DNA of 64,000 nucleotides, from positions 18,749-82,748 of the forward strand of contig JAFUTQ010000105.1 in assembly GCA_017484135.1 (NCBI GenBank), in the 5' to 3' direction. Shown here in pieces: positions 7,330 to 51,633 of this stretch. Each line of letters opens with the position of its first letter. Within the stretch, counting starts at the first letter, position 1. Position numbers and translations under genes: made by a program. The notes under the pieces are model-generated. The model made no database searches and was not told the origin of the DNA. It was given only the letters and a program-made list of their open reading frames with translations. This stretch comes from Lachnospiraceae bacterium (GTDB taxonomy: Bacteria > Bacillota > Clostridia > Lachnospirales > Lachnospiraceae).

Positions 7330-7354
7330 ATTTTCAGAAAAAACATGATAAAAT
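7326..7354 (+). promoter_or_regulatory. codY promoter overlapped by a CodY box
   Basis: TTGAAT (7326-7331), a 17-base spacer and TAAAAT (7349-7354) form a sigma-A type promoter that begins inside the topA stop. AATTTTCAGAAAAAA (7329-7343) matches the CodY consensus in 13 of 15 positions and covers the end of the -35 and the spacer, which would allow autorepression. The last two bases of the -10 belong to the left end of the hairpin repeat that follows. Confidence 0.6.
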
Positions 7355-7500
7355 GATTTGTGGGTCAAAAGGTTCACATCGTGAAACGATGCGAACACTT
7401 TGCACAAGAGATCGCTTTGGAAAGCGAGCTTTCCAAAACGATTTTTGTGCAAAAAGTCTATGCCGACATGGTCGGCATGACCTTTTGCCCCTCAAATCAT
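7353..7500 (+). repeat. Hairpin-rich dispersed repeat, copy A (148 bp), in the codY leader
   Basis: The ends are inverted repeats: ATGATTTGTGGGTCAAAAGG (7353-7372) and the complement of 7481-7500 agree in 18 of 20 bases. Inside are three hairpins: TTCACATCG/CGATGCGAA around 7373-7395; a long one with TTTGCACAA/TTGTGCAAA (7399-7407, 7445-7453), ATCG/CGAT, and a perfect TTTGGAAAGC/GCTTTCCAAA (7416-7425, 7428-7437); and ATGCCGAC/GTCGGCAT (7460-7467, 7471-7478). The whole would fold as a multi-branched structure in RNA or as a cruciform. It contains no convincing gene and lies between the codY promoter and codY. A related, larger copy lies at 50135-50472. I do not recognise a named family. Confidence 0.85.
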
Positions 7501-7543
7501 AAAATAAAAAAGTATGTAGCTGTAATCACTAAGGAGACACAAG

Positions 7544-49345: not shown

Positions 49346-50138
49346 ACTGGGCAGCGGGATTGTTCTCGTAATTCTTGCGCTGTGTTTTTTGATTGCAGGA
49401 GGAGATTTGCTGCTGGCAGCATCCGGGTTGATTTCCCTGATTGGTTTATATGAGTTATACCGGGTATTTCAGATTGAGAAAAATATCGTGGGTGCCATGG
49501 GCTATCTGGCAGTGATTTTGTATATCTGCAATTTGAAATTCGCCTTCTTGTCGGATTTTAGGTTTTTTGTGCTGGGGCTTTTGGTGTTTATGACCAGTGT
49601 GTACGTTTTCCGCTATCCCAAATATCGCACCGAGCAGCTGCTTGCGGCATTTTTCGGGGTGTTCTATGTGGCGGTTATGTTATCCTGTGTATACCTCACC
49701 AGAATGCTGCCGGGAGGTGCTTACATGGTCTGGCTGATCTTTTTGTGTTCCTGGGGCTGTGATACCTGCGCTTATGCGGTGGGGGTACTGTTCGGTAAAC
49801 ATAAGATGACGCCGATACTGTCTCCGAAAAAATCATGGGAGGGCGCAATTGGCGGCGTGATCGGCTCGGCATTGCTCACACTGATTTACTGTATGGTATT
49901 TCGCAGCCGCATGCAGCTGACGGAAAGGGAATTGATCTTTTTTGTCCTGATCGGTGCAGTGGGAGCGGTCATATCCATGATCGGAGATCTGACTGCATCT
50001 GCCATCAAGCGGAATTATCAGATTAAGGATTACGGAAAACTGATTCCCGGACATGGCGGTATTCTGGATCGCTTTGACAGTGTGATTTTTACGGCACCTG
50101 TCATTTATTATCTGACATGTTATCTCGTTATAAAATGA
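49326..50138 (+). CDS. cdsA: Phosphatidate cytidylyltransferase
   Basis: Makes CDP-diacylglycerol for phospholipid synthesis; 270 residues with about seven membrane segments. The C-terminal CDS signature is clear: MIGDLTASAIKRNYQIKDYGKLIPGHGGILDRFDSV (two parts), with SPKKSWEGAIGG before it. The ATG at 49326 follows GGAGGAAGAG inside uppS. Its last codons and stop overlap the left end of the hairpin repeat at 50135. Confidence 0.96.
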   Translation: MKSFWIRLGSGIVLVILALCFLIAGGDLLLAASGLISLIGLYELYRVFQIEKNIVGAMGYLAVILYICNLKFAFLSDFRFFVLGLLVFMTSVYVFRYPKYRTEQLLAAFFGVFYVAVMLSCVYLTRMLPGGAYMVWLIFLCSWGCDTCAYAVGVLFGKHKMTPILSPKKSWEGAIGGVIGSALLTLIYCMVFRSRMQLTERELIFFVLIGAVGAVISMIGDLTASAIKRNYQIKDYGKLIPGHGGILDRFDSVIFTAPVIYYLTCYLVIK

Positions 50139-50472
50139 TTTGAATTTGAGAGTCAAAAGGATTTGAGGGGCAAAAGGTTCACATCGTGGGAGGAAGCCTA
50201 ATGAGCGGAGCTCATTTTTGAATGGCTTCCGACGATTTGGCAGGTGACGCGGAGCGGCGCGTGCCGATACCTTAAACGATGTGAACACTTTGTGTACGAA
50301 ATCGAATCGGAAAACTCGTTTTCCGAGACGATTTCGTACACAAAGAGTCAATGCCGACTGCGTCGGCATGACACTTTGAACAAAAAATCATCTCGGAAAA
50401 CTAGCTTTCCGATCCGATTTTTTGTTCAAAGCGTTCACATCGTAAAACGATGTGAACCTTTTGACATTTGAT
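50135..50472 (+). repeat. Hairpin-rich dispersed repeat, copy B (composite, 338 bp), between cdsA and dxr
   Basis: The gap between cdsA and dxr is filled by this element. It starts ATGATTTG like copy A (7353-7500) and is closed by GTCAAAAGG (50152-50160) and CCTTTTGAC (50457-50465). GATTTGAGGGGCAAAAGG (50160-50177), a second left end, equals the inverted right end of copy A. Inside are: stem GTTCACATCG/CGATGTGAAC (50177-50186, 50277-50286) enclosing two hairpins; a perfect 17-bp stem CTTTGTGTACGAAATCG (50288-50304 with 50329-50345) with inner TCGGAAAA/TTTTCCGA; ATGCCGAC/GTCGGCAT (50351-50358, 50362-50369); a perfect 16-bp stem CTTTGAACAAAAAATC (50374-50389 with 50416-50431) with inner TCGGAAA/TTTCCGA; and GTTCACATCG/CGATGTGAAC (50433-50442, 50448-50457). 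No credible gene inside. Confidence 0.88.
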
Positions 50473-50490
50473 AAATTTAGGAGGAAAATT

Positions 50491-51633
50491 ATGAAGAAAA
50501 TTGCGATTTTAGGTTCGACCGGTTCCATCGGCACACAGACGCTGTCTGTTGTCCGGGAACAAAAAGATATTCAGGTGACTGCACTGGCTGCAGGAAAAAA
50601 TATTGCTCTGCTGGAGCAGCAGATCCGGGAGTTTTCGCCCAGACTTGCGGCTGTGTGGGAGGAAGCTGCTGCGAAGGAGCTGCGCACAAGGGTACGGGAT
50701 CTTGACGTGGAGATTGTGAGCGGAATGGACGGACTGCTTGCGGTAGCGACAGACAAAGAAGCCGGAATTCTGGTTACCGCCATCGTGGGCATGCTTGGAC
50801 TTCGTCCCACTATCGAAGCAATTCGCGCCGGAAAAGACATTGCTCTGGCAAATAAAGAGACATTGGTAACGGCGGGGCATATTATTATGCCTATGGCGGC
50901 AGAATATGGGAGAAGGATTTTCCCGGTAGACAGCGAGCACAGTGCGCTTTTTCAATGTCTGCAGGGAGCGGCACTCAATCCCGTACGAAAAATTCTGCTC
51001 ACGGCATCCGGCGGGCCCTTCCGCGGAAAAAAAAGGGAGGAACTGCGGCACATACAGCCGGAGGATGCGCTTCGTCATCCCAACTGGAATATGGGAAAGA
51101 AAATTACAATTGATTCTGCGACGATGGTCAACAAGGGCTTAGAGGTCATCGAAGCAAAATGGCTGTTCCATGTGTCGCCGGATCAGATTCAGGTTGTAGT
51201 ACAACCACAAAGTATCATACACTCTATGGTAGAGTTTGAGGATGGCGCCGTGATCGCACAACTTGGTACAGCAGATATGCGCCTGCCGATTCAGTATGCG
51301 TTGTATTATCCGGAGAGAAGATTTTTAAGCGGAGACCGGCTGGATTTTACCAAATTAAAGCGCATTGATTTGGAAGAGCCGGATACAGACACCTTCCGCG
51401 GCCTGAAGCTGGCATATGAGGCATGTGAGCGGGGCGGCAATCTTCCGACGATTCTGAATGCCGCGAATGAAAAGGCAGTAGCCATGTTTCTGGACAGAAA
51501 AATCGGATTTCTCGATATTACAGAGATTATTGAGACCTGTATGCGGGACTGCAGCCGCGTGGAGCATCCGACGGTGGAGCAAATCCTCAGTACCGAGCAG
51601 GAAGTATATGAGTATATAGAGAGCAGGTGGTAG
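50491..51633 (+). CDS. dxr: 1-deoxy-D-xylulose 5-phosphate reductoisomerase
   Basis: Second enzyme of the MEP isoprenoid pathway, using NADPH. NADPH-binding GSTGSIG is at residues 8-14; the metal and substrate region reads PVDSEHSALFQCLQG, then ILLTASGGPFRGK, and NWNMGKKITIDSATMVNKGLEVIEAKWLF in two parts. The ATG at 50491 lies 6 bases after AGGAGG; product 380 residues. It forms a MEP/prenyl group with ispG and uppS. Its upstream region is the hairpin repeat, so its promoter, if separate, lies in or before that. Confidence 0.98.
   Translation: MKKIAILGSTGSIGTQTLSVVREQKDIQVTALAAGKNIALLEQQIREFSPRLAAVWEEAAAKELRTRVRDLDVEIVSGMDGLLAVATDKEAGILVTAIVGMLGLRPTIEAIRAGKDIALANKETLVTAGHIIMPMAAEYGRRIFPVDSEHSALFQCLQGAALNPVRKILLTASGGPFRGKKREELRHIQPEDALRHPNWNMGKKITIDSATMVNKGLEVIEAKWLFHVSPDQIQVVVQPQSIIHSMVEFEDGAVIAQLGTADMRLPIQYALYYPERRFLSGDRLDFTKLKRIDLEEPDTDTFRGLKLAYEACERGGNLPTILNAANEKAVAMFLDRKIGFLDITEIIETCMRDCSRVEHPTVEQILSTEQEVYEYIESRW

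Follow-up and report, generated by a model that had tools for sequence, protein, structure and literature searches.

Here, we report that three long hairpins in a Lachnospiraceae genome are part of a small, non-coding mobile DNA element of gut Lachnospiraceae. They lie in a 64,000-nucleotide stretch of contig JAFUTQ010000105.1 (assembly GCA_017484135.1, positions 18,749 to 82,748), analysed as a whole and referred to as the window. We put the probability at roughly 0.6 that the element is a non-autonomous, MITE-like cloverleaf whose stems have been re-symmetrised and lengthened by inverted copying at the DNA level, probably through template switching during replication. Covariation commonly counts as strong evidence of selected RNA structure, and a natural family in which covariation is strong and a strand-asymmetry test favours a DNA origin could be used as a warning benchmark in the search for RNA families. 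The family also offers dozens of natural copies on which to measure, in a bacterium, how hairpins drive template switching and how this spills over into the genes alongside.

Layout, distribution and termini of the element

Two members of this dispersed repeat lie in the window, and both are built on a fixed four-stem layout of an outer stem, H1, a variable H2 and H3 (Table 1). Copy A is a complete 144-bp unit between 7-bp direct repeats and stands between a DNA topoisomerase gene and codY; copy B (50136-50472) stands between the cytidylyltransferase gene cdsA and the DXP reductoisomerase gene dxr (gene names from Pfam matches). A first-pass annotation, made from the sequence alone, had described the three long hairpins as self-complementary over 9, 17 and 16 bp, with a ATGCCGAC/GTCGGCAT stem kept in both copies and a GTTCACATCG/CGATGTGAAC stem occurring twice in copy B, and the sequence is as it described; the latter stem lies at 50177-50286 and 50433-50457. 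The arm sequences are unrelated between hairpins, and each hairpin is self-complementary. Complementarity between the arms of the two long hairpins of copy B is 90% over 31 nt and 84% over 32 nt, with unbroken basal pairing of 17 and 16 bp, respectively; the unbroken pairing at the hairpin base in copy A is 9 bp. Folded as single-stranded DNA, copy A falls 11 standard deviations below its shuffles, and copy B, folded as RNA, falls 12.5 standard deviations below.

The annotation further took copy B for a modular tandem growth of the unit in copy A. Its order is outer arm-H1-H2-H3-H2'-H1'-outer arm, with H3 as the point of inversion for the second half (75-nt arms, 79% complementary), which rules out a tandem copy; the word modular holds in part, in that an H1 bearing GA-cis RNA recurs in three elements with different H2 stems and in both orientations. 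The GA-cis insert between the arms of the first H1 of copy B had gone unremarked. GA-cis accounts only for that insert and was rejected as an explanation of the element; a known RNA family was likewise rejected for copy A, whose matches were only of microRNA type, plus one to rox1, all far below their gathering scores. No clear target duplication was found at copy B.

Table 1. Features of copies A and B, in positions of the window
Feature	Position	Strand	Basis or remark
Copy A left target-site duplication ATAAAAT	7348..7354		Direct repeat exactly abutting inverted termini
Copy A complete element, termini GATTTGTGGG...CCCCTCAAATC	7355..7498	+	144 bp; covariance model match, 150.4 bits
Copy A stem H1 GTTCACATCG/CGATGCGAAC	7372..7396	+	Sequence, fold
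Copy A stem H2, variable long hairpin	7398..7454	+	Sequence, covariation, fold
Copy A stem H3 ATGCCGAC-ATG-GTCGGCAT	7460..7478	+	Sequence, pattern search
Copy A right target-site duplication ATAAAAT	7499..7505		Direct repeat
Copy B 5' outer arm, two staggered TIR-like repeats 17 bp apart	50136..50176	+	Begins at cdsA stop codon, 50136-50138
Copy B H1, 5' arm	50177..50187	+	Inverted-repeat analysis
GA-cis RNA RF02987 inside copy B H1 loop	50185..50275	+	55.8 bits versus gathering score of 34.7
Copy B H1, 3' arm	50276..50286	+	Inverted-repeat analysis
Copy B stem H2, TGTACGAAATCG allele	50288..50345	+	Inverted-repeat analysis
Copy B stem H3 (ATGCCGAC/GTCGGCAT), inversion point of second half	50351..50369	+	Inverted repeat, pattern search
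Copy B stem H2', AACAAAAAATC allele, inverted half-unit	50374..50431	-	Model match C1:69089-69211, minus strand, 90.8 bits
Copy B stem H1', ordinary loop	50433..50457	-	Inverted-repeat analysis
Copy B 3' outer arm CCTTTTGACATTTGA	50458..50472	+	Sequence

The window comes from a 2.55-Mb MAG (116 contigs, 83% complete) in which copy A has 75 matches, both strands counted, and the pattern ATGCCGAC-N{2,12}-GTCGGCAT occurs 64 times (reversed control, 0). A covariance model (R1), made from 30 aligned copies with a structure drawn from that alignment, gave 142 matches at an E value of 0.1 or better, counted on both strands because the element is nearly palindromic. From these, 87 places were examined; duplicates on the opposite strand were dropped, as were matches that were weak or overlapped others, among them the plus-strand match on the first half of copy B. 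The element is short (~145 bp in the source MAG, ~195 bp in relatives) and multi-copy, has no evident coding capacity, and varies in its arms, with insertions and deletions.

Among 60 relatives, one, a congener (G005, one of seven), carries the element, and the other 59 had no match to it under stricter filters; G005 is sequence-identical to SC0379_S9_8 at three loci. A degenerate pattern run over genomes of 84,980 species returned 15 stretches, all titled Lachnospiraceae, of which one (L217) was discarded as a chance hit because the covariance model finds nothing in it. Copies in B84_9_MI_BP, ABMPRH_237_1, SRR13921775_bin.38 and SRR13921779_bin.8 keep the four-stem layout and differ in sequence. 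Copy A had no match among plasmids and phages, and the degenerate pattern had none among viral contigs; a phage, plasmid or viral origin was set aside on these results. No earlier description of the element was found in the literature searched, and our statement of novelty is limited to that search. One copy (L266, G061:C6) lacks H3, the deletion being apparently bounded by GCAAGA direct repeats, and another structured repeat, containing GAGTTGAAGYGGRCTTG, occurs in relatives' genomes (L265, L277, L323), once within an H2.

Terminal inverted repeats (TIRs) GATTTGAGGG are present in source-MAG copies. Relatives' copies start with TTTGAGTTTC, and a search for the pattern TTGAGTTTCYNYATTTT gave 76 hits across four relatives' genomes (reversed control, 0). 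Target duplications were sought in an anchored test confined to unextended copies whose terminus could be recognised: 5 of 19 such copies in the source MAG lie between exact direct repeats of 6-8 bp (cross-pairs, 0/342), with no detectable duplication at the other 14. All five come from the group of six that most resemble copy A (93-97% identical), and none of the 13 unextended copies outside that group has one. A scan at fixed offsets over 72 copies, 20 bearing the standard terminus and 52 not, revealed nothing clear. Among 16 copies in two related MAGs, 13 have direct repeats of at least 7 nt (7-12 nt) with up to 3 nt of slack allowed at each edge, and cross-pairs gave 2/240 at 6 nt or more and 0 at 7. 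These 16 loci (14 from B84_9_MI_BP, 2 from SRR13921779_bin.8) are what remained of 18 entered once two with no recognisable TIR (L218, L222) were skipped; other fetched copies, such as L269, L270 and L272-L274, were not entered. On the strength of the target-site duplications in the source MAG and the two related MAGs, together with its TIRs and its short, non-coding, multi-copy form, the element is MITE-like.

Three of the 16 relatives' copies are core-less forms of ~60 bp with duplications, which suggests that the termini are sufficient for movement. Examination of 19 TIR sites, at ~3 kb each, yielded no convincing autonomous partner or transposase-bearing element (L325, 128 bp, was left out); three of the sites are short forms of ~60 bp, and imperfect 10-mer partners lie at 0.9-2.2 kb in L310, L313, L316 and L320. 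A partner insertion sequence would bear TTTGAGTTTCC or GATTTGAGGG ends.

Outer stems and mirrored gene ends

Outer arms were scored in 79 of the 87 places, and those with a score of at least 10 (71 copies) were counted. The arms reach at least 25 bp in 44 of these copies, at least 30 bp in 36, and at least 40 bp in 16. The longest arm inside a contig measures 72 bp (L176); L161 (142 bp) and L153 (67 bp), two longest-arm cases, were flagged at contig ends and so were not relied on. In 18 of the 23 longest arms (16 once the two contig-end cases are removed), the part beyond the 22 core-proximal nucleotides has no match in any other copy. Some outer stems share, by eye, a CAGGATGGGGGA...CGGT theme and probably form a second subfamily, so an unusual outer stem is not always a copied flank. 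Long outer arms were seen in the source MAG only, that is, in one MAG, and relatives' copies, judged by eye, have a TIR and duplication and no extension. In L125 and in L136 (second copy), the GATTTGAGGGG-type terminus is tandemly repeated in both outer arms at once, as if the element lay within an older terminus.

Palindrome edges fall within -30 to +10 bp of a stop codon on 35 of 76 stop-facing sides versus 4 of 60 start-facing sides (simple ORF calls of at least 100 amino acids). At five loci (L137, L151, L171, L172 and L185), the arm enters a reading frame by 12-28 bp, and at two of them, L171 and L185, orthologues were compared. The gene at L171 encodes threonine synthase and is present in 19 of 21 genomes, including the source MAG. 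Matches in all 18 relatives extend to residue 408-410 of 411, so the arm coding for RFLG is ancestral and the arm across the element is its copy.

At L185, a DJ-1 family gene, the empty site is seen in four congeners. The gene ends in KKGLVFEGL in the source MAG and in GLIYHN, KLVYA, IMYFK, GLIY and GLVY in the five readable of seven congeners (the gene end was misread for G004 and G007, both outside these five). A downstream motif, TTACCAACATATTTT or near it, lies 7, 12, ~12 and 20 nt past the DJ-1 stop codon in G005, G001, G003 and G002, respectively, and ~37 nt past it in G008, of another genus; it was not seen at the G006 DJ-1 locus. In the source MAG, the element, then the 28-nt gene end in mirror image, and then a further 21 nt come before the motif. 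Both L171 and L185 thus carry, across the element, a reverse-complement copy of the ancestral coding end, and mismatches in the mirror arms of both make library artefacts unlikely. At the site of copy B, the gap between cdsA and dxr is 352 bp in the source MAG and ~1, 1, 8, 13, 50, 120 and 120 bp in seven congeners (by eye); among these, G005 is the one congener with the element at any locus.

Mirror flanks might instead be made during insertion, by fold-back synthesis primed from the inserted single-stranded hairpin and not by later replication errors. That mirror copies of ancestral gene ends adjoin the element, and that palindrome edges often end at a stop codon, would fit such an origin. 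We nevertheless consider it unlikely, since the six copies closest to copy A end in plain TIRs and lack any long extension, target duplications being present at five of the six, and since extended copies such as L128, L130, L132 and L160 keep a standard or near-standard TIR inside the extension, which suggests that the extension came after insertion.

Covariation and mismatch symmetry

The differing arms had been read as compensatory change, and the alignments bear this out. Both partners change in 38 of the 63 pairs among 30 copies (mean of shuffles, 15.9, with 0 of 500 reaching 38; slid structures, 13-21) and in 41 of 63 across species (mean of shuffles, 28.2, with 0 of 500 reaching 41; slid structures, 19-26), with the caveat that relatedness alone can exceed shuffles. 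The cross-species alignment (A4) held 34 sequences, namely 10 from the source MAG, 6 from G005, and 18 from four other MAGs. As to the cause, the annotation had offered either selection for structure or a turnover that preserves palindromes; turnover is the better supported of the two.

In an RNA helix, G·U is less disruptive than A·C. Mismatches in H1, H2 and the outer arms of 76 copies of 140-152 nt (H3 left out, inherited mismatches counted several times) amount to 104 G·U versus 106 A·C (two-sided P, 0.95), and those on the transcribed strand of 40 co-directional copies to 48 versus 65 (two-sided P, 0.13; simple ORF calls). The outer arms alone, shared terminus and locus-specific part together, give 33 G·U versus 27 A·C in 71 copies and 13 versus 23 on the transcribed strand of 36 co-directional copies. 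Seventeen distinct tRNA genes from all fetched sequence, by comparison, show 18 G·U versus 4 A·C. They were taken as the control because the GA-cis one (29 copies, 31 versus 5) is weak, 28 of its 31 G·U mismatches being one fixed column. Orientation relative to genes is even, with 19 sense and 21 antisense among the 40 co-directional copies. The equality of G·U and A·C mismatches argues against RNA selection and, with the even orientation, points to a symmetric DNA process; the paired stem changes probably come from DNA copying that keeps restoring symmetry, not from a preserved RNA shape.

A structured RNA (cis-regulator, sRNA or processing element) under RNA-level selection could also have spread as a repeat, with compensatory changes keeping its fold. 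It would account for strong covariation within and across species, for the very stable folds of copies A and B, and for palindrome edges close behind stop codons, whose position means that the element is often transcribed. As the main reading, however, an RNA regulator was ruled out by the mismatch symmetry and the even orientation. We regard RNA-level selection as improbable, given that neither strand has a G·U excess, whereas tRNAs show one, that outer stems run to tens of base pairs of locus-specific sequence, and that copy A has no Rfam match at the gathering score.

An intrinsic terminator has a GC-rich stem and, after it, an unpaired U-run. Terminator-like sites number 5 in positions 49900-50700 of the window (0.7 expected), three of them at the H2/H2' tips with the T-run paired to the opposite arm, and the same scan found none at the outer stem of copy B. 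Insertion of the element into the loops of existing terminator hairpins, the outer stem being the old terminator, is very improbable even though several outer stems look terminator-like by eye (L023/L123, L141), because the arms contain conserved coding sequence, complementarity continues with no leftover loop, and pre-existing hairpins are ruled out at the DJ-1 locus, where the 7-20 nt from stop codon to motif in four congeners leaves no room for a hairpin with a gene-end arm.

Proposed mechanism, related systems and hairpin modules

In the mechanism that we favour, inverted copying at the DNA level, the TIRs enclose a DNA cloverleaf of outer stem, H1, long H2 and H3. This unit would spread through ordinary transposition, mobilised in trans by a transposase outside the element, and would leave short target duplications behind. 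As a strong hairpin is replicated, the new strand may switch to the opposite arm and so carry a change from one arm over to its partner; a switch that runs outward past the element would copy flanking DNA, including the 3' end of a gene, in mirror image. Selection would remove copies written over the coding side, and gene ends would then remain as templates. Copy B may be an aged composite made up of a single unit, GA-cis lodged in the loop of H1, and a half-unit (H2'-H1') in inverted orientation.

Put more broadly, and more tentatively, at somewhat under even odds, this would be a self-symmetrising mobile element: replication would mirror the neighbouring DNA, stems would grow into gene ends, arms would drift in concert with no selected RNA, and hairpin modules (H1 with GA-cis cargo, H2 alleles) would be swapped between copies in either orientation.

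SbcD attacks hairpins. It scored over the cut-off in two of the eight genomes of the genus (G004 and G001), both devoid of the element. Four further congeners with no SbcD hit over the cut-off are also devoid of it, and G000 is only 83% complete; tolerance of palindromes through SbcD loss, suggestive at most, was rejected.

Prokaryotic MITEs such as Coxiella QMITE2 are described, in the excerpt of the source used here, as short and non-coding, with TIRs, 7-9 bp direct repeats, AT-rich targets, and strong folding (PMC10969869). The element shares the direct repeats (6-8 bp in the source MAG, 7-12 nt in relatives) and the strong folding, but it has a fixed four-stem cloverleaf, a variable H2, and outer stems that reach into locus-specific mirror flanks, features that the same excerpt does not mention (PMC10969869). 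REP/BIME sequences, going by part of a published account, are palindromic, extragenic, and mostly downstream of genes, and REP ends may supply stop codons; a REP is defined there as a 20-40 bp palindrome with a GTAG or CGTC tag (PMC3733652). The element is likewise palindromic, extragenic, and mostly 3' of genes. Compared with that partial account, it is far longer (144 bp), has several hairpins, TIRs and target duplications, and ends in GATTTGAGGG with no GTAG/CGTC tag (PMC3733652).

Template switching in replication is reported, in the section of the literature drawn on, to produce reverse-complement copies, to make a perfect stem in one event, and to restore pairing (PMC8794818). The cases in that section concern RNA genes and microRNA loci, whereas here a mobile element is concerned and the copying would run outward into host genes; by analogy, the same process may act on a MITE-like element and overrun its edge (PMC8794818). 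Hairpin-forming mobile elements of mitochondrial DNA, as summarised in an extract of their description, are invasive hairpin repeats with divergent sequences and a similar shape, much like the element here (PMC2800124). They are organellar, and the extract makes no mention of transposition with TIRs and target duplications or of mirrored gene ends (PMC2800124).

Hairpin modules are exchanged between copies or inserted one within another. An H1 with a GA-cis loop occurs in three elements (copy B, C82:5767 and C114:29847), with the same left junction, nearly the same right junction, different H2 sequences, and one in the other orientation; GA-cis also sits at the H2 tip at C13:15006 and C17:25375. 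In one relative's copy (L264, G061:C21), H1 is replaced by a GGGGCTGTCGCAC hairpin, and a related H1 is found in a source-MAG copy (L041/L186; L186 near 1251). The GGGGCTGTCGCAC/GTGCGACAGCCCC-type hairpin in place of H1 in L264 and L186/L041 resembles the terminus of another repeat.

GA-cis itself has 44 matches in the source MAG, 43 of them over the cut-off and several in tandem, ~88-93 nt apart; papers on GA-cis were not found in the literature searched. GA-cis may be a mobile unit by which ribosome-binding sites are duplicated. Its units start at AGGAGG, which resembles such a site (50185-50275 in the window; L054, L057, L060, L075 and L077), and a second AGGAGG stands behind the unit at several places, often directly before a start codon.
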